From the NCBI GenBank assembly GCA_018667995.1, contig JABIQT010000941.1, forward strand, positions 1 to 7,644: a DNA stretch of 7,644 nucleotides. Reading direction: 5' to 3'. The translations under genes were made by a program, and so were the position numbers. Below the pieces are notes generated by a model. It had not been told where the DNA came from and did not search any database. It saw nothing but the letters and a program-made list of their open reading frames with translations. The stretch comes from Candidatus Latescibacterota bacterium. GTDB taxonomy: Bacteria; JAAXHH01; JABIQT01. This document shows positions 1 to 6,686 of the stretch, one piece after another. Numbering within the stretch: the first letter of the stretch is position 1; the number at the start of each line of letters is the position of its first letter.

Positions 1-127
1 AACTTACCGGCGACTGATTCTCGCCTATGCGCTCAAGCCGGCCGCCTGCCCGCACGGAGAAGTCACTGTCATCGAACAGCTGAAACTTGAACGAGGTGCT
101 TCCGACGTTGGCAATGAGGATATTCAT
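1..127 (-). CDS. Acetate/propionate-family kinase, N-terminal fragment (runs off left edge)
   Basis: Reading leftwards from an ATG at 125-127, the open frame encodes 42 residues beginning MNILIANVGSTSFKFQLFD. The NxGSxSxKF pattern (residues 7-15) is the first phosphate-binding motif of the acetate/propionate/butyrate kinase family (ASKHA fold), which converts acyl phosphate and ADP to carboxylate and ATP. About 90 percent of the usual roughly 400-residue protein lies outside the window. The next gene upstream on the same strand is a class II aldolase with a microcompartment-type tail, 81 bp away, so the two are probably co-transcribed. In PVM-type BMC loci a kinase of this family yields ATP from the acyl phosphate made from aldehydes. 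Substrate (acetyl, propionyl or lactyl phosphate) cannot be decided from this fragment. No clear SD precedes the start. Confidence 0.85.
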   Translation of the reverse strand, partial: MNILIANVGSTSFKFQLFDDSDFSVRAGGRLERIGENQSPVS

Positions 128-208: not shown

Positions 209-1069
209 TTACCTTACGGGGATAATCTTGGCCTGGCCATCGTCCCCGGATTCAGAGCCTCCAGCACCAAGTCGGTTAACCACCTCACGCGTTATGAGGC
301 GGACCAACTCGTCCTGAGACGGCTGTTCGTTAGCGCTATCCTTCTTGTTCGGCGGCATGATAGGCTGGCTATCGGCGACCGACTGATCGTTGATGTTATG
401 ACCGTTCTGTAGTTGGCAAACGGCTTTAGTAGTTACTCCGAAGCGATCTCGAAGTCCAATGAGGTTGTCGACGTCTTTTTTGCCCAGGCTGTTTACGTTA
501 CCCAGAAGACGGGCCGTCAGGGCAATGTTGGCGAAATGCTCCATGGTTTCCATTTTATGGTAAGCATTGATGACGTCCGGACCGATGGTCAAGGCACCGT
601 GGTTCTCCAGGAGGTAGGCGTCGTAGTCGTGCACGAACTTCCGAATGGGTTCTACGAGTTCCATCGTGCCGGGAAGACCATACTCCACTATCGGAACCGA
701 CCCCAGTGCAACTATTACCTCGGGCAACAGGCACTCCGTCAATGGGATCCCCGCCACAGAGAAGCCAGTAGCCGTCGGTGGGTGGGCGTGCGCGACCCCG
801 TTCACGTCTGATCGCTCTTGGTATACCATCAAATGCATTTTTATTTCAGATGAAGGTTTGAACCTGCCGGAGACCACATTTCCGTCATAGTCGATAACAA
901 TCAATTGCTCAGGCGTTAGAAATCCCTTGCTGACACCTGTCATTGTCACCAGTAGTCGATCTTCCGAAAGACGAACGCTTATGTTGCCATCATTCGAGGC
1001 TACATAGCCCCGTTCGTACATGCGTCTGCCTACATGAATTATGTCAGCCTTCGCCTGCTGCAGTGTCAT
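209..1069 (-). CDS. Class II (fuculose/rhamnulose-phosphate type) aldolase with C-terminal BMC encapsulation peptide
   Basis: This 286-residue class II aldolase/adducin-family protein (numbered from the ATG at 1067-1069) shows the phosphate-binding SNDGNIS loop (25-31), a zinc-site glutamate in SSE (Glu75), the AHAH pair (His94, His96) and the third zinc histidine in ENHG (His157). The family cleaves a ketose 1-phosphate, such as L-fuculose or L-rhamnulose 1-phosphate, into dihydroxyacetone phosphate and lactaldehyde. The domain ends near residue 210. A polar, Pro/Gln/Asn-rich linker follows, then an amphipathic helix (253-268, DELVRLITREVVNRLG) of the kind that targets cargo to microcompartments, and a short acidic/basic tail. 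Planctomycete PVM-BMC aldolases carry such extensions. An in-frame ATG at 1096 would add nine residues, but only the 1069 start has an SD (AAGGGG, 6-nt gap). Substrate identity is inferred. Confidence 0.9.
   Translation of the reverse strand: MTLQQAKADIIHVGRRMYERGYVASNDGNISVRLSEDRLLVTMTGVSKGFLTPEQLIVIDYDGNVVSGRFKPSSEIKMHLMVYQERSDVNGVAHAHPPTATGFSVAGIPLTECLLPEVIVALGSVPIVEYGLPGTMELVEPIRKFVHDYDAYLLENHGALTIGPDVINAYHKMETMEHFANIALTARLLGNVNSLGKKDVDNLIGLRDRFGVTTKAVCQLQNGHNINDQSVADSQPIMPPNKKDSANEQPSQDELVRLITREVVNRLGAGGSESGDDGQAKIIPVR
266..313 (-). other. Putative encapsulation-peptide segment of the aldolase
   Basis: These bases encode DELVRLITREVVNRLG. Hydrophobic residues recur at i, i+3/i+4 spacing (L, V, I, V, V, L), giving one non-polar face on a charged helix, and the segment is joined to the enzyme by a long low-complexity polar linker. 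It ends in LG, followed by AGG. This pattern matches the known design of BMC encapsulation peptides. It is a pattern match, not a demonstrated function. Confidence 0.75.
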
Positions 1070-1075
1070 GTTCAA

Positions 1076-1081
1076 CCCCTT
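1076..1081 (-). promoter_or_regulatory. Ribosome binding site deciding the aldolase start
   Basis: On the minus strand AAGGGG lies 6 nt before the ATG at 1067-1069. No comparable site precedes the in-frame ATG at 1094-1096. The family alignment also begins near MTLQQAK, which is the downstream start. Confidence 0.55.
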
Positions 1082-1142
1082 GATATTTCTGGCCATACGC
1101 CATGGTTAGATTCTGGCGCAGTTTTTCAGTTTCTTTGAAGAC

Positions 1143-1163: not shown

Positions 1164-1179
1164 GACCTACTATACACAA
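1151..1179 (-). promoter_or_regulatory. Predicted sigma-70-type promoter for the aldolase/kinase genes
   Basis: On the minus strand, TTGTGT (1179-1174) and TATATT (1156-1151) are separated by 17 nt. The -10 matches the consensus at five of six positions and the -35 at three of six. The -35 lies inside the last codons of the upstream SelA-like gene. This would let the aldolase and kinase be transcribed independently of it. Transcription would start near 1144, leaving a leader of about 75 nt. Confidence 0.45.
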
Positions 1180-2540
1180 GTGTTTTTAAGCACAGATGTT
1201 AGTGTCCCGATTTGCCATTCCTCGACCGTTCGCATGTCGATTAACACATTGCTTCCTTCGCATCCAGAAAGAACTGATGGGACATGGTCACGGAGGCGCC
1301 TGGCAAGACCCTTGGCGGGTGTGTTCTTTACACTGATAATGAGGCTATAACCCGGGATGGACTCCGAAGGAAGGCGTGCTTCCGTCAGATGGGTAATGGA
1401 CTTGGTCGTTCTAATTTCATATGCGAATTCAGGGCTCTCGCGGCATGCCTTCAGTACACGCTCCATTCGGTTGAGAATGCTGGTCTCAGATGTCAATATT
1501 GCCCTTCCAGGTGCATTATTTGAGAGTCCCCCTGATCCTTCGTCATATCCGGCGAGGGCGTTGACCATGTGAGTCTGGCTATCTGTTTTGGACGCCAGGT
1601 ACGATGCCAATGTGTTGTTCAAAATGGCATCCATGGCATGAGATTCGCCTGCGACGATGCCACAGGGCGGACCGCCCGTAAATTCGCTCCGGCAAATGGC
1701 GATGGAAACGCCTGAACTGATCGCGTCTCGGATGGATGGGCCAAGATTTAGGATGCCGCTGCGTATCGGAGATAGCGTGGTCAATCCAGCCCCATAAATG
1801 ACGGGGATCCCCAATCGCCGCCCCAGTGTGGCGATCTCTGCTATTCCTACTTCCTTTGAGAACCCTTCAAAACCATATGTTTGCGGCCTAAGGTACAAGA
1901 TTGCTCCCGTATTTCCACCGATAGCTATCTCATAATCTTCAATATGAACTTTGTTTGTAGCACCGACTTCGACAGGTTGAACCTGGCATTCCTCAAGAAG
2001 ATCCAGCACTCGCAGATTGCCCCACGTACCAACCTGGGCACGCGCGATAATGACCTCTTTACCCGGGCAAAGACTATTCACGGCCAACCAAAGTCCCGCG
2101 ATATAGTCACGGAACAGGCAAGTACGTTCCGCTCCCGTAATCCTGCTCAAGATTGTCTCTGCAGGAGTGGCATCAATAGCAAGCTTCGAGACGGCCTGAT
2201 CAATCGTAGAGGGCTGAACTGGGAGATTCGCCGCTGCGTTGGCGTAGCTCGTCTGAAACAGGACTCCAGAGGCGTTGATGGGTAAGGAGGCCTCGTCCTG
2301 CGCTGCCTCGAGAATCCGAGAACAGACCACGTCTACCAGTGCCTGCAGCGAAATATCCTTCGGTGCTGAAGTCTGCTCTCTGATCGACGATCTGATTTCC
2401 GCCAGAAGTGATCGTACAGTCTGGACTACTTTGGATCGCGCGTGCGTCGCGCAGATTTTCTTTAGCCTCTCGTCCTGCAGGAGTGTACTCACGGCCGGAA
2501 CGGATGACATAGGCGCATGCACCCTAGGCTTATGCTTCAT
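1170..2540 (-). CDS. SelA-fold protein lacking the PLP lysine (inactive L-seryl-tRNA(Sec) selenium transferase homologue)
   Basis: The 456-residue product follows bacterial SelA over its whole length. It has the N-terminal helical domain (SVPAVSTLLQDERL, 13-26), INASGVLFQTS where SelA has INLTGTVLHTN (88-98), RITGAE (133-138), EVGATNKVHIEDY (191-203), TYGFEGF (221-227), GVS...GGPPCGIVAG (277-298) and a matching C-terminal domain (RLPSES near 389; LIDMRTVEEWQ, 433-443). The catalytic core is changed. SelA's SGDKLLGG, carrying the PLP lysine, is CRSEFTGG here (283-290), and the PLP-pyridine aspartate of TDLGSG is glycine (YGAG, Gly250). PLP-dependent selenocysteinyl-tRNA synthesis is therefore very unlikely. 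The conserved fold and uninterrupted frame suggest a selected non-PLP or scaffold role, which is unknown. The first 11 bp overlap the DUF2064 gene, so translation may be coupled. An alternative ATG at 2510 has a weak AGGG 9-11 nt upstream. Confidence 0.85.
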   Translation of the reverse strand: MKHKPRVHAPMSSVPAVSTLLQDERLKKICATHARSKVVQTVRSLLAEIRSSIREQTSAPKDISLQALVDVVCSRILEAAQDEASLPINASGVLFQTSYANAAANLPVQPSTIDQAVSKLAIDATPAETILSRITGAERTCLFRDYIAGLWLAVNSLCPGKEVIIARAQVGTWGNLRVLDLLEECQVQPVEVGATNKVHIEDYEIAIGGNTGAILYLRPQTYGFEGFSKEVGIAEIATLGRRLGIPVIYGAGLTTLSPIRSGILNLGPSIRDAISSGVSIAICRSEFTGGPPCGIVAGESHAMDAILNNTLASYLASKTDSQTHMVNALAGYDEGSGGLSNNAPGRAILTSETSILNRMERVLKACRESPEFAYEIRTTKSITHLTEARLPSESIPGYSLIISVKNTPAKGLARRLRDHVPSVLSGCEGSNVLIDMRTVEEWQIGTLTSVLKNTCV

Positions 2541-3249
2541 CTTGCAGTCGGTCTAACCGTTCTGACATGGACATCAGGATTACCTCAGAATTGGCCCCGG
2601 TATAACGATCTCCGGCGTCGCGGATGGAGGCGATTGTCTGGCGAAGATTGAGCAAGTCCTTTGCCTGATCCACATCGGACCATTCAGGTAGCTCAAGTAG
2701 ACTCAGGCCTGCTGTAGTTGCCGCCCGTATAGTCTGTGGGTAAACCAAATCGGTGCTCCAACTAATATCTCTAAATAAATCAATGTATCTGTCGTTGTGG
2801 GTGCGTTGATTTTTCAGACCAATAAGGTAGTAGCCTCCGTCCGTGGCTGGTCCCAATACAACGTCATGTTCTCTTAGTCCATCAAAGGCCTGCTCGAAGA
2901 TGTGCTGTGGTAATGCCGGGCAATCGCTCCCTACGGTGACAACGCCCATTGTGTCGTTCACCAAAGTATTACGAAAGGCGCGCAGGAGTCGATCCCCAAG
3001 CGACTCTCCCGATTGCGCAAACCACGATACGGTAGGAGATCCTATAATCTCTCGGAGTACCGGCTCGGCATCGGCGGGGCTGTATGCGACGCTTGTTTGC
3101 GTATTGGCCACTGACCGAGCCGTGTTTAGCGTGTCCTGGACAAAGGCGCGATAGAGTTCCGCAGCCTCACGTGATGTCAGAAATGGAGACAGACGGGTTT
3201 TAACAGTCCCGGGGGTGGGGGATTTTGCGAATACTACGATTGACTGCAA
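2530..3249 (-). CDS. DUF2064/TIGR04282-family GT-A-type glycosyltransferase or nucleotidyltransferase
   Basis: The 239-residue product has the full set of DUF2064 motifs. These are FAKSPTPGTVKTRL at residues 7-20 (the nucleotide-binding loop with basic residues Lys9, Lys17 and Arg19), GESLGDRL at 81-88, VGSDCPAL at 106-113 (DxD-like metal/nucleotide site), GPATDGGYYLIGL at 133-145 and the late W.DVD segment near 190-194. The fold is Rossmann-like GT-A, related to MobA. Database names call this family 'arsenosugar biosynthesis glycosyltransferase', but no arsenic gene is present here, so the substrate is unknown. A polar C-terminal extension of about 25 residues, rich in charged and Met residues, follows the usual domain. 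Its start is TTG at 3247-3249, supported by GGAG 6 nt upstream. It heads a minus-strand transcript and overlaps the SelA-like gene. Confidence 0.85.
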   Translation of the reverse strand: MQSIVVFAKSPTPGTVKTRLSPFLTSREAAELYRAFVQDTLNTARSVANTQTSVAYSPADAEPVLREIIGSPTVSWFAQSGESLGDRLLRAFRNTLVNDTMGVVTVGSDCPALPQHIFEQAFDGLREHDVVLGPATDGGYYLIGLKNQRTHNDRYIDLFRDISWSTDLVYPQTIRAATTAGLSLLELPEWSDVDQAKDLLNLRQTIASIRDAGDRYTGANSEVILMSMSERLDRLQDEA

Positions 3250-3255
3250 AGGATA

Positions 3256-3259
3256 CTCC
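3256..3259 (-). promoter_or_regulatory. Ribosome binding site supporting the TTG start of the DUF2064 gene
   Basis: GGAG on the minus strand lies 6 nt before the TTG at 3247-3249. The predicted protein begins QSIVVFAKSP directly after it, the normal N-terminus of this family, so the rare start codon is likely real. Confidence 0.6.
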
Positions 3260-3279
3260 GTTGAAATTGGTTAAGGGGA

Positions 3280-3308
3280 ACAATACCCGATACCCTAATT
3301 CCTGTCAA
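3280..3308 (-). promoter_or_regulatory. Predicted promoter for the DUF2064/SelA-like transcript
   Basis: On the minus strand, a perfect -35 TTGACA (3308-3303) and a -10 TATTGT (3285-3280, four of six) are separated by exactly 17 nt. Transcription would start near 3273, about 24 nt before the TTG start codon. A second TTGACT (3320-3315) is less well placed. Confidence 0.6.
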
Positions 3309-3394
3309 TATTCAAGTCAACTATGAGGCTGATATGGCTGAAAATCACCGTCCCTAACATGAAGCAAGACCTATGTGTTATGGCCAGATATGGC

Positions 3395-3424
3395 TTGACA
3401 TCATGTTTCACGAATGCATATGTT
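3395..3424 (+). promoter_or_regulatory. Predicted promoter for the IscS-like gene
   Basis: A perfect -35 TTGACA (3395-3400) is followed after 18 nt by TATGTT (3419-3424), a four-of-six -10. Transcription would start near 3431 and give a leader of about 45 nt ending in a strong SD. With the minus-strand promoter at 3280-3308, the 226-bp gap forms a divergent control region. The 9-mer GATATGGCT occurs twice in it (3331-3339 and 3387-3395). Confidence 0.55.
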
Positions 3425-3475
3425 CAAAATCTTTGCGAAGTTGAGATTATTGAGGTATTTCGAGGTGGATAGGAC

Positions 3476-4291
3476 ATGCCTGCTAGTAATAGTTCGCTTG
3501 CAAATCGGGTTCCTGAGTCTACAGATCCACGCGTCCTTGATGAGATGATGCCTTACCTCACCGAACTGTTTGGAAATGCCGCCAGCCTCAACCACTCCTT
3601 CGGATGGGCGGCGCAGGATGCGTGCGACCGTGCAAGAGATCAGATCGCCGCGGCCATAGGAGCGCGAAGTGGTCGTGAGGTGGTTTTTACGAGTAGCCAT
3701 TTGGAGTCGGACCGGCTTGCGGTTCTTGGTGTGGCGACAGCATATACAGATCGTGGGCAACACGTGCTGGCATCGGGCTCCGAATGCTATCTCCGTCACA
3801 TGCGTGAAATAGCAGAAGACAATGAAGAAATCGAACTGGGCTTGATCCCTTTGGACCAAACCGGGGTTCCAGATTTTGAATCATTCAGAAAGGTTGCCAG
3901 AGGAAACACGGTCCTGTATTCACTGGCCATTGAATCCGATACTGAGGATCTTTCGGCTCACCTGAGAACGGTCGGGCAATTATGCAGGGAGCGGGGCGTC
4001 CTGTTTCATGTCAGCACCGCTGACATTTTGATTCGGCGTCATATCAGTGTTGAAGATGCTCACATTGACCTGCTCACACTGGACAGTCGAAAACTGGCCG
4101 GTCCCCCGGGAATAAGCGCACTTTACGTTCGAGCCCGGAAGCCGATGGTCCGTCTTGCCCCCTTGATCGATGGTGGTGGGCAGGAGAGAGGGCGAAGATC
4201 CGGTACTCTCAATGTAGCTGGAATTGTGGGACTGGGCGCAGCCTGTCATTTCTGCGACGAGGCTCACAAGCTGATGGAAGGATCACAGTGA
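3476..4291 (+). CDS. Truncated, catalytically degenerate IscS/NifS-like class V aminotransferase-fold protein
   Basis: The 271 residues align with cysteine desulfurases of the IscS type. Matching segments are DPRVLDEMM (17-25), FGNAASLNHSFGW (32-44), REVVFTSSHLESDRLAVLG (67-85), GPPGISALYVRARKP (209-223) and GGGQERGRRSGTLNVAGIVGLG (233-254). Lys206 occupies the Schiff-base position (SRK instead of SGHK). Other key residues are altered. The His of TEHK is Cys104, the Asp/Gln pair of HVDATQ is Ser180/Asp183, and the NNEIG motif is SDTED. The first strand (LDYSATTP) is also lost. The usual protein is about 380-400 residues. This one stops before the C-terminal domain, so the sulfur-carrying cysteine loop is absent. 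It has a good SD (GAGGTGG, 7-nt gap) and promoter, so it may be expressed. Desulfurase activity is not expected, and the role is unknown. Confidence 0.8.
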   Translation: MPASNSSLANRVPESTDPRVLDEMMPYLTELFGNAASLNHSFGWAAQDACDRARDQIAAAIGARSGREVVFTSSHLESDRLAVLGVATAYTDRGQHVLASGSECYLRHMREIAEDNEEIELGLIPLDQTGVPDFESFRKVARGNTVLYSLAIESDTEDLSAHLRTVGQLCRERGVLFHVSTADILIRRHISVEDAHIDLLTLDSRKLAGPPGISALYVRARKPMVRLAPLIDGGGQERGRRSGTLNVAGIVGLGAACHFCDEAHKLMEGSQ

Positions 4292-4612
4292 GCTTGCGCG
4301 GTCGCGTTGCGCTTGTTACGGGCGCCAGAGTTGGCCTACCATGGCCACACCTCAGCGAACGAGAGCCTGCCGGTCTTTTAGAGAAGTCAGGCACGAGACA
4401 TCGGAACGGATGGCGTCATTATCAATATGGTAGCGCCGGGATTGATGGCCGGGACCGGCATGAGTTGACATCATAACGAGACTTCGCGGGGCGGAGTGCC
4501 CAGGCGAACCTTTGTTGGACGACTCAGCAGACTTGAAGAGTGGTTTCATTGCCTCGGCATCATTCGTGACGGGGCAGGTCTTGTGGTTGACGATGGGCTA
4601 ACGATGAGATGA
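4288..4612 (+). pseudogene. Decayed short-chain dehydrogenase/reductase (FabG-like) remnant
   Basis: A GTG at 4288-4290 overlaps the upstream stop as GTGA and opens SLRGRVALVTGA, the standard SDR N-terminus and glycine-motif start. Homology then breaks up. From 4391 another frame encodes RDIGTDGVIINMVAPGLMAGTG, the SDR segment that normally sits around residue 180-195, and reaches an in-frame TGA at 4466-4468. The same frame continues with PRRTFVGRLSRLEEW. A third stretch (from 4551) gives ASASFVTGQV, and after one more frame change VVDDGLTMR ends at TGA 4610-4612. Only about 325 of the expected 750 bp remain. The Tyr-x-x-x-Lys active-site region falls in the missing middle. Internal deletion, at least three frame changes and a stop make this a pseudogene. 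The tidy start overlap implies it was once an operon partner of the IscS-like gene. Confidence 0.8.
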
Positions 4613-4674: not shown

Positions 4675-5646
4675 ATGTGGACCGAGATTGAGCGTGTTAT
4701 AGACGCGAACCAGAAATTTGTGGTCACCAGTCATGTGAATCCAGATGGTGATTCAATTGGTTCGGCTTTGGCCCTGTGTGAGTTTTTGAGGGCACGGGGT
4801 AAAGAGGCCGTTGTTATGACCAGCGACGAGGCACCGATGGTGTACCGTTGGCTGGATCCAGGTGGAGATATGATTTCACCAGCGACGGAGGAGGACCACC
4901 ACCATATCACATCGGCGGATGCGGTCTTCATTGTGGATGTGAATGGATGGGAGCGACTTGGGAGCATTGGAGAAATCATTCGTGATGCGGCGGCCGTTAA
5001 AGCTGTGATCGACCACCACCCGTATCGAGAGGAAATTACACCAATCACCGTTGTGGACACATCCGCCTGCTCAACAGCGGAACTGATTTATGATCTAATT
5101 ACATCACTAGGCGGACCCCTTTCCCGGAGGGCGGCCGACGGTCTCTATACTGGAATTCTGACTGACACGGGATCATTTCGCTTTGCGAACACCTCCCCTG
5201 TGGCTCACCGGATTACTTCGAGCTTGCTTGATGCCGGTGTGGAACCCGCCACGGTCTACGATCTTGTATACAACCAGAATTCTGAAGCCAGAACACGATT
5301 GATGGGAAAGGTGCTATCGGGAATCTCATTTGCCGGAAATGGGCAAGTTTCCTGGTTGACCGTAACCCGAGATATGATCGCGGACGCGGGCACGAGACCA
5401 GAAGATACGAGCGGATTTGTAGACGCGGCAATGACGATCGCCGGCGTGGAGATTGGGATAATCTTCGTAGAGGCCCCGGACAATAAGGTTCGTATCAGTC
5501 TGCGCTCCAGAGGCAACAAGGATGTTAACAAAGTAGCCTCCAATCTGGGCGGCGGTGGTCACAAAAACGCGTCAGGGGTAGTTTTCCAAGGATCAATCGA
5601 AGAGGCGGTGATAGCCGTTACCGGTGAAGCCGTGAAAGCCCTTTGA
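4675..5646 (+). CDS. nrnA: DHH/DHHA1 phosphoesterase, NrnA-type oligoribonuclease / pAp phosphatase
   Basis: The 323-residue protein is full length for NrnA, a cytoplasmic Mn-dependent enzyme that degrades nanoRNA and dephosphorylates 3'-phosphoadenosine 5'-phosphate. The DHH domain shows SHVNPDGDSIGS (19-30; metal ligands His20, Asp24, Asp26), Asp88 in VDVN, the name-giving DHH at 113-115 and ILTDTGSFRF (161-170; Asp164). The DHHA1 domain carries the substrate-binding SLRSRG (275-280) and GGGGHKNASG (292-301) motifs. All catalytic residues expected from family knowledge are present, so it should be active. The DHH is followed by PYREE instead of the more usual xxN pattern, a small variation. 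Its stop overlaps the next gene by 4 bp. nrnA is commonly a housekeeping gene, so its coupling to a transporter operon may be chance packing. Confidence 0.93.
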   Translation: MWTEIERVIDANQKFVVTSHVNPDGDSIGSALALCEFLRARGKEAVVMTSDEAPMVYRWLDPGGDMISPATEEDHHHITSADAVFIVDVNGWERLGSIGEIIRDAAAVKAVIDHHPYREEITPITVVDTSACSTAELIYDLITSLGGPLSRRAADGLYTGILTDTGSFRFANTSPVAHRITSSLLDAGVEPATVYDLVYNQNSEARTRLMGKVLSGISFAGNGQVSWLTVTRDMIADAGTRPEDTSGFVDAAMTIAGVEIGIIFVEAPDNKVRISLRSRGNKDVNKVASNLGGGGHKNASGVVFQGSIEEAVIAVTGEAVKAL

Positions 5647-6686
5647 GCGTGTACCAGAATACCAGTGCCATGTTAAAGAGGCTATCGAAGGACGCCAACA
5701 GAATAACTTTCAGTTACTTATCGATAAGCTTGCTACTACTGCTCTTCATGGTTCAATCGTGTGGGAATTCCGCGGAAGACTCATCGGATGCTTTCAAGGT
5801 CGCCCTGCTGACCCCCGGACCAGTTAGCGATGCCGGATGGAACGCCAGTGCCTACGAAGGACTGCAACTGATCGGCACCACTATAGGGGCAGAGGTCAGC
5901 CAAATAGAGACGCGCACTCCGGCTGACTTTGAACAGGGATTTCGGGATTACGCAGGCGCTGGTTACGATCTGATATTTGGCCATGGATTTGAATTTCAGG
6001 ACGCAGCTGCGACGGTATCAGAGTCGTTCCCCGGCAGTGTCTTTATTACCTCATCAGGAACCACCGTACGCGACAATGTCGCCCCTATCGTATTCGAGAT
6101 TGAACAAGCCACCTATCTTTTGGGAATGATCTCGGCATACCAGAGCAAGTCCAGGAAAATCGGTGCCGTCGGTGGCATAGAGATCCCCTCGGTGAAAAGC
6201 AGCTTTGACGCTTTCGCTGCCGGAGCTCGATCCGTCGATCCTGAAATCAGTGTGGTCGTCTCATATATAGGCAATTGGGAAGATGCGGGCGCGGCGAAAG
6301 AGGCCACTCTCGCGCTCATGGATCAAGGCATCGATTTCATTTTTCACAATGCGGATGCTGCGGGCCTCGGGGTATTTCAGGCTGCACAAGAGCGGGGTTC
6401 CGTATTCGTATTCGGTTCTAACAAGAACCAGAACGACATCGCGCCCGATGTGATTCTGGCCAGTGCCGTACTGAGCATACCAACTGCCATGCTTACGGTC
6501 GCCCGTGAAGTCCAGAATGGATCTTTTTCTCCAAGTATCAGGCGTCTGGGAATGGCCGAAAATGTGGTAACATTGGTCATCAACTCTAAGCTTCGTGATC
6601 GTGTGCCAATCGAAGTTTGGGACGCTGTGGCCGAGTCGGAGGGCAAGATCCGGTCGGGGGAATTGACTGTACCCAGGGGGTTTTGA
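5643..6686 (+). CDS. BMP/PnrA-family ABC transporter substrate-binding lipoprotein
   Basis: A basic N-region, the hydrophobic stretch ITFSYLSISLLLLLFMVQSC (21-40) and a cysteine at 40 form a lipoprotein signal. After processing, the protein would be anchored in the envelope. The mature part matches basic membrane protein/PnrA binding proteins: KVALLTPGPVSDAGWNASAYEGL (52-74), DLIFGHGFEFQDAA (109-122), FEIEQATYLLGMISA (151-165), IGAVGG (173-178), FIFHNADAAGLGVFQAA (232-248) and the GSNKNQNDIAPDVILAS region (258-274). Family members bind nucleosides or related small ligands for ABC import. Where many members have DxDQ, this one has NKNQ, so ligand choice may differ. Its start could be TTG 5643, overlapping the nrnA stop as TTGA, or ATG 5670, which gives a more typical signal length. 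Neither has a strong SD. The cognate ATPase begins 3 bp after the stop. Confidence 0.88.
   Translation: MSVYQNTSAMLKRLSKDANRITFSYLSISLLLLLFMVQSCGNSAEDSSDAFKVALLTPGPVSDAGWNASAYEGLQLIGTTIGAEVSQIETRTPADFEQGFRDYAGAGYDLIFGHGFEFQDAAATVSESFPGSVFITSSGTTVRDNVAPIVFEIEQATYLLGMISAYQSKSRKIGAVGGIEIPSVKSSFDAFAAGARSVDPEISVVVSYIGNWEDAGAAKEATLALMDQGIDFIFHNADAAGLGVFQAAQERGSVFVFGSNKNQNDIAPDVILASAVLSIPTAMLTVAREVQNGSFSPSIRRLGMAENVVTLVINSKLRDRVPIEVWDAVAESEGKIRSGELTVPRGF

Follow-up and report, generated by a model that had tools for sequence, protein, structure and literature searches.

A lysine-less SelA-like protein as the putative tRNA-binding subunit of a split selenocysteine synthase in Candidatus Latescibacterota

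The stretch of DNA analysed here, referred to as the window, is one entire contig of 7,644 nucleotides (JABIQT010000941.1, assembly GCA_018667995.1) from the 6.06-Mb, 85% complete draft genome of a Candidatus Latescibacterota bacterium. Its reverse strand encodes, at positions 1170-2540, a 456-residue protein that resembles bacterial selenocysteine (Sec) synthase, SelA, and lacks the lysine that holds pyridoxal phosphate (PLP). Genomes of the same phylum carry a second, short SelA with the reciprocal losses. We propose, with slightly better than even confidence, that the lysine-less protein is one half of a split, hetero-oligomeric bacterial Sec synthase, in which it would be the non-catalytic, tRNA-binding subunit and the short SelA the catalytic one. 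We would give about an even chance to the broader claim that the entire phylum makes Sec in this way, with the pseudo-enzyme paralogue providing tRNA-Sec recognition and ring contacts and the SelA devoid of an N-terminal domain (N-domain) providing catalysis.

In its published description SelA is a homodecamer whose subunits each combine tRNA-Sec binding with catalysis, and a missing N-domain has been put forward as the mark of homologues that do not make Sec (PMC4607533). The tRNA-Sec sits between two SelA dimers, with the N-domain on its D-arm and the neighbouring dimer processing it (PMC4607533; PMC7609411). The literature searched (mostly without subscription papers) yielded no account of a heteromeric SelA; it describes SelA as a homo-oligomer and contains no split form of the enzyme.

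A SelA-like protein without catalytic residues and with its N-domain

The phylum was sampled with 16 genomes: the window's own genome for its family (G000), G015 (83% complete), and a third family made up of G001, G014 (99% complete) and twelve genomes of one genus (g3). A lysine-less SelA was present in all 16: direct search found it in 15, and in G014 a C-terminal part of it stands at the end of a contig; in the former 15 genomes the open reading frame (ORF) is intact and holds invariant residues. The window's protein matches PF03841 (E=4e-40) and, with 190 bits, fails the TIGR00474 equivalog cut-off of 267.9, which its G015 relative passes (351). An earlier note, made from the window alone, had described this protein as stripped of its normal active site, and the alignments bear this out. 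The PLP lysine, K285 in Aquifex aeolicus SelA, is absent from 15 of 15 lysine-less proteins, the equivalent residue being Glu in the window and Gly in the other 14; the window's Glu286 (codon 1683-1685, reverse strand) lies at or adjoining that position, with a one-residue gap in the motif. Ser282 is gone from all lysine-less proteins, Asp284, Arg86, Arg312 and Arg315 are gone or variable, and the three selenophosphate-binding arginines (86, 312 and 315) read N/S/A in the window.

The tRNA-binding part of the protein is retained. Its N-domain, encoded at 2286-2510 on the reverse strand, matches PF12390 with E=1.3e-5 (6e-13 in G015, weakly in G001), and 15 of 15 proteins retain P15, V17, R43, L46 and R50 (numbered as in the window), the leucine without any exception. 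In the g3 protein scanned, PF12390 stayed below threshold, yet these residues were kept. The longest invariant stretch of the family, EVGATNK....DY (residues 191-203, reverse strand 1932-1970), corresponds to A. aeolicus residues 188-200 and includes the dimer-dimer residues 191, 192 and 199 (PMC4607533).

An AlphaFold model of the window's protein (mean predicted local distance difference test score, pLDDT, 83.7) aligned over residues 7-456 with A. aeolicus SelA 3w1h_A (433 residues aligned, Z 38.4, root-mean-square deviation 4.2). The predicted structure thus resembles bacterial SelA (TIGR00474; PDB 3W1H/3W1K from A. aeolicus, and 8UZW) in its whole-length fold, N-domain included. Since SelA sequences were in AlphaFold's input alignment, the model supports the fold and says nothing on function. 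Among the best 80 of 552 loci in a scan of genome contigs, lysine-less proteins were seen in three loci only, all from this phylum; a plasmid search turned up only distant SelAs.

A short SelA with the reciprocal losses

A second SelA was detected in 14 of the 16 genomes, elsewhere in the genome than the SelA-like locus. These proteins score 485-506 bits against TIGR00474, and their matches start at model position 58-72 of 455, so that they have no N-domain. The residues equivalent to A. aeolicus R86, R119, S217, S282, D284, K285, R312 and R315 are all kept in 14 of 14. No full-length, lysine-bearing SelA was found by the TIGR00474 search in any of the 16 genomes.

We rejected the possibility that the short form is a start-site artefact: the in-frame upstream sequence in the 14 genomes holds no N-domain, and the only N-domain carriers in the TIGR00474 search are the lysine-less proteins, bar one short noise match. 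Nor is it a common variant. In a broad sample of about 165 genomes outside the phylum with a SelA at E<=1e-35, nearly all listed matches start at model position 1-4. The exceptions checked are mostly split contigs or fragments; the others are one with stops, one starting at position 27, G290 and G135. No two-SelA pair of this kind was seen among these genomes. The 100%-complete G135, from another group, carries a lone N-domain-less SelA (L256, C113:55008-56135; TIGR00474 positions 70-453, 375 bits).

The two kinds of SelA also differ at the interface between dimers, where the A. aeolicus contact residues are 174, 191, 192, 199 and 218-224 (PMC4607533). Columns conserved among 26 independent canonical SelAs were compared within positions 187-203 and 218-224 and elsewhere. 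All four lysine-less lineages kept 8 of 13 interface columns versus 11 of 66 elsewhere (p=0.0017) and the short SelAs kept 8 of 13 versus 61 of 66 (p=0.0089), a reversed bias; as the residue windows were set around published residues after the alignments had been viewed, these p-values serve as a guide. No lysine-less protein has lost E188, K194 or F224. Among the short SelAs, none retains E188 or F224, and K194 is altered in 13 of 14, with Arg in one as in some canonical SelAs. The window's protein keeps the equivalents of Asp199, Thr192, Gly223, Phe224 and Arg174.

A quick free tree placed the two kinds of SelA apart. Trees in which both were constrained together had the higher likelihood, by 30 log units with 106 rows and by 17 with 64 rows without the window, and a deep separation of the two kinds was therefore dropped. 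This outcome agrees with the two kinds having arisen by one duplication within the phylum and then lost complementary parts, with the uncertainty that the long branches bring.

Selenocysteine decoding in the phylum

Judged by their genes for tRNA-Sec, SelB and SelD, bacteria of this phylum decode selenocysteine. Rfam matches to tRNA-Sec of 68-72 bits were obtained in 13 genomes, and ARAGORN reported tRNA-SeC(tca) in each of the four checked (G001, G003, G006 and G015). SelB was above cut-off in 14 of 16 genomes and SelD in 15 of 16. In the window's genome and in G015, the SelD gene reads TGA, in frame, where Sec is known to stand (L264, G000 C1058:1586-2506; L265, G015 C19:21578-22510), which means that a Sec synthase must exist. 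The window's own assembly, 85% complete, yielded this SelD and a short SelA; tRNA-Sec and SelB were not found in it. In most other genomes the SelD frame stays open over 700-880 residues, which suggests a fusion. With Sec decoding present and no N-domain on its only lysine-bearing SelA, the phylum goes against the rule that N-domain loss marks homologues outside Sec synthesis.

A possible split synthase

In the scheme that we propose, an ancestral full-length SelA would have been duplicated in the phylum. One copy, the short SelA, would have kept all the catalytic residues tested and lost the N-domain and part of the dimer-dimer interface. The lysine-less subunit would bind Ser-tRNA-Sec and hold out the tRNA's acceptor end to a short-SelA dimer next to it, in whose active site Ser would be turned into Sec with selenophosphate. 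We regard a split synthase as the simplest reading because it explains together the reciprocal losses of the two SelA kinds, Sec decoding and conservation, all of which are present in the sequences compared. The earlier note's speculation about a selenium-linked role in RNA modification finds a counterpart here, in that the lysine-less SelA probably acts on the tRNA-Sec step.

The lysine-less protein shares with bacterial SelA the N-domain and the dimer-dimer interface residues, and differs from it in the missing PLP lysine and selenophosphate arginines, in the window's score below the TIGR00474 cut-off and in its proposed dependence on a separate catalytic subunit. A bacterial split pyrrolysyl-tRNA synthetase likewise has its tRNA-binding and catalytic parts on separate polypeptides (PMC6267555), as is proposed here; that enzyme is unrelated and its parts are separate domains, whereas each SelA subunit here keeps the full core fold.

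Genomic context and alternative explanations

A class II aldolase gene (209-1096, reverse strand; PF00596, E=2e-48) lies beside the lysine-less gene in the window. It is present in one copy in each of the 16 genomes and adjoins the SelA-like gene wherever the contig allows: the G014 fragment likewise stands just before it, and in G002 both genes are at contig ends. Next after the aldolase, and cut by the contig end, is the 5' end of an acetate-kinase-like gene (1-127, reverse strand), read directly and recognised by eye from its likeness to L060 g12 and L061 g13. On the other side, upstream, lies a gene for a GT-A-like transferase of the DUF2064 family (2530-3249, reverse strand; PF09837, E=8e-32), which belongs to TIGR04282 by profile (192.7 bits against a curated cut-off of 134). 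In G001, G015 and g3 genomes, too, the loci read have it upstream of the SelA-like gene. The coupling of these two genes that the earlier note had deduced from an 11-bp overlap holds: the overlap is exact (2530-2540), and the genes overlap in several lineages, by 17 bp in G015 and by 4 bp in G005 and G006.

Bacterial microcompartment (BMC) shell proteins were found only in G000, G001, G014 and G015. The aldolases of BMC-bearing genomes have a C-terminal extension, which in the window ends in an amphipathic, encapsulation-peptide-like helix; those read from g3 (L062:8842-9474 and other g3 loci) are 210-227 residues long, lack the extension and come from genomes without BMC shell genes. The aldolase/SelA-like pair has therefore outlived the microcompartment. 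The earlier note had considered that the SelA-like gene might travel with BMC genes only. It is not so tied: the 12 of 16 genomes without a PF00936 match keep the aldolase and the SelA-like gene, together with DUF2064 in those read, and a BMC protein was accordingly rejected as the defining context.

Near this locus we also observed a gene for an AIR-synthase-like protein (L061:16965-17987; L062:7395-8417), with matches in G000 (C825), G014 (C185) and G015 (C80). The protein falls between HypE, ThiL and SelD, with about 100 bits to each. Its gene adjoins an HU-like gene where read, and the G000 copy is on another contig than the SelA-like locus.

This neighbourhood is the main basis for the alternative that fares best, though we hold it to be rather unlikely: the lysine-less SelA would be an aldolase-pathway protein (a scaffold, chaperone or regulator of the aldolase or of the former microcompartment) unrelated to tRNA-Sec, and the short SelA would make Sec alone, independently of an N-domain. 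The constant position beside the aldolase with DUF2064 upstream, the retention of both genes after BMC loss in 12 genomes and the presence of the lysine-less protein in G014 and G015, where no short SelA was found, all fit this explanation. It leaves unexplained the retained N-domain residues and dimer-dimer interface, and gives no account of why the short SelA should have lost exactly those parts while Sec decoding persists.

Several observations weigh against a split synthase. The lysine-less gene is in the aldolase operon and not beside sel genes, and the model leaves the operon link to aldolase and DUF2064 unexplained. The lysine-less SelA is the fastest-evolving protein of the window, with 28-39% identity between lineages, compared with 57-62% for the short SelA and 73-78% for the aldolase. 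Neither G014 (99% complete) nor G015 (83%) yielded a short SelA, and both have SelB and SelD. Twelve of the 15 lysine-less proteins have another residue in place of R174, whose bond with D199 spans two dimers, and the interface p-values carry the caution given with them. The SelA active site is located where the two subunits of a dimer meet, so that mixing the two kinds within one dimer might cripple it. The sister relation of the two SelA kinds may be long-branch attraction. Finally, we infer from sequence that the two proteins associate, that the lysine-less one binds tRNA and that the short SelA is the catalyst.

Two other explanations keep the lysine-less protein or the short SelA out of a joint enzyme. 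In the first, which we judge improbable, the lysine-less SelA tunes the supply of Sec by sequestering or delivering tRNA-Sec or Ser-tRNA-Sec. A kept N-domain, lost catalytic residues and a gene away from the sel genes agree with such a factor; the short SelA would then be left without a means of recognising tRNA-Sec, and known SelA requires two dimers per tRNA (PMC4607533). In the second, a shade less probable still, neither SelA makes Sec: the short SelA is repurposed, the lysine-less one is slowly decaying, and Sec arises by another route, for instance an archaeal-type SepSecS. The precedent is Helicobacter pylori and H. acinonychis SelA, which, like the short SelA, kept its catalytic residues, lost the tRNA-binding N-domain and has a changed interface, H. 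pylori having lost Sec decoding (PMC4607533); the fast evolution of the lysine-less protein points the same way. Unlike H. pylori, the phylum has tRNA-Sec, SelB and a Sec-containing SelD, as well as the N-domain-bearing lysine-less companion, which has an unbroken ORF in 15 genomes and a set of invariant residues.

The IscS-like gene and the rest of the window

The earlier note had joined the SelA-like and DUF2064 genes with a third into one module. All three ORFs are intact, the third being a NifS/IscS-like class-V aminotransferase gene (3476-4291, forward strand; PF00266, E=1e-34). Its 271-residue product is homologous to cysteine desulfurase over about 260 residues and differs from it in being truncated, with most active-site residues changed. 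The claim that this active site was stripped was right for His, Asp and Gln (replaced by Cys, Ser and Asp) and for the C-terminal part with the catalytic Cys loop, which is absent; it was wrong for the PLP position, where Lys206 (codon 4091-4093) still aligns with the lysine. A full-length relative was found in G014 only. This protein of 379 residues, 47% identical over 245, is encoded directly upstream of the same three genes, NrnA-BMP-ABC, that follow in the window, and has itself lost the PLP lysine that the window copy has.

The stop of the IscS-like gene overlaps the start of a short-chain dehydrogenase (SDR) pseudogene remnant (4288-4609, forward strand; tblastn with the intact 255-residue G015 SDR, E=1e-20 for the C-terminal part). 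Compared with that intact protein, the remnant has its start and C-terminal parts in different frames, in-frame stops and about 130 residues missing. The truncation, the decayed neighbour and the comparison with G014 together point to a gene cut short where it borders a decayed region, and not to a partner of the SelA-like gene. The independent functional degeneration of two neighbours, on which the earlier note had built, thus falls away. The IscS-like gene sits on the NrnA-BMP-ABC side, as in G014, and the SelA-like gene on the DUF2064-aldolase side. No other genome examined has all three genes together, so the conserved module was rejected. A modified cofactor or RNA, linked to sulfur or selenium, as the joint product of the three proteins is very improbable: the genes are neighbours in the window around a common divergent region, where a promoter scan gave matches on both strands near, and not above, chance level, but the IscS-like gene is truncated and adjoins the SDR pseudogene, and in none of the other loci examined does it neighbour the SelA-like gene.

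The divergent neighbouring operon, assigned by family profiles, starts with a gene for an NrnA-like DHH protein (4675-5646) and continues with those for a BMP/PnrA-like lipoprotein (5643-6686) and an ABC ATPase (6690 to the end, 7644), all on the forward strand and in the same order in G001 and G014.

A second NifS-like family was observed in G001 (L070:7754-8902), with homologues in g3 (L032-L044). It has no PLP lysine (SARS/SART for SAHK) and keeps the catalytic Cys (SVGSSCAAHA), His and Asp; its genes lie near MoaD/MoaE-like genes in G001 and G005. A lysine-less cysteine desulfurase with an intact Cys loop is unusual.

Significance

The reciprocal losses in the two companion SelAs amount to a natural separation-of-function experiment. 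If the split synthase is real, it is an example of how a ring enzyme can be parted by duplication into one subunit for recognition and one for catalysis, and the hand-over of tRNA between neighbouring dimers would become testable. Both genes would then also be miscalled by annotation rules that look only at the N-domain or only at the lysine.

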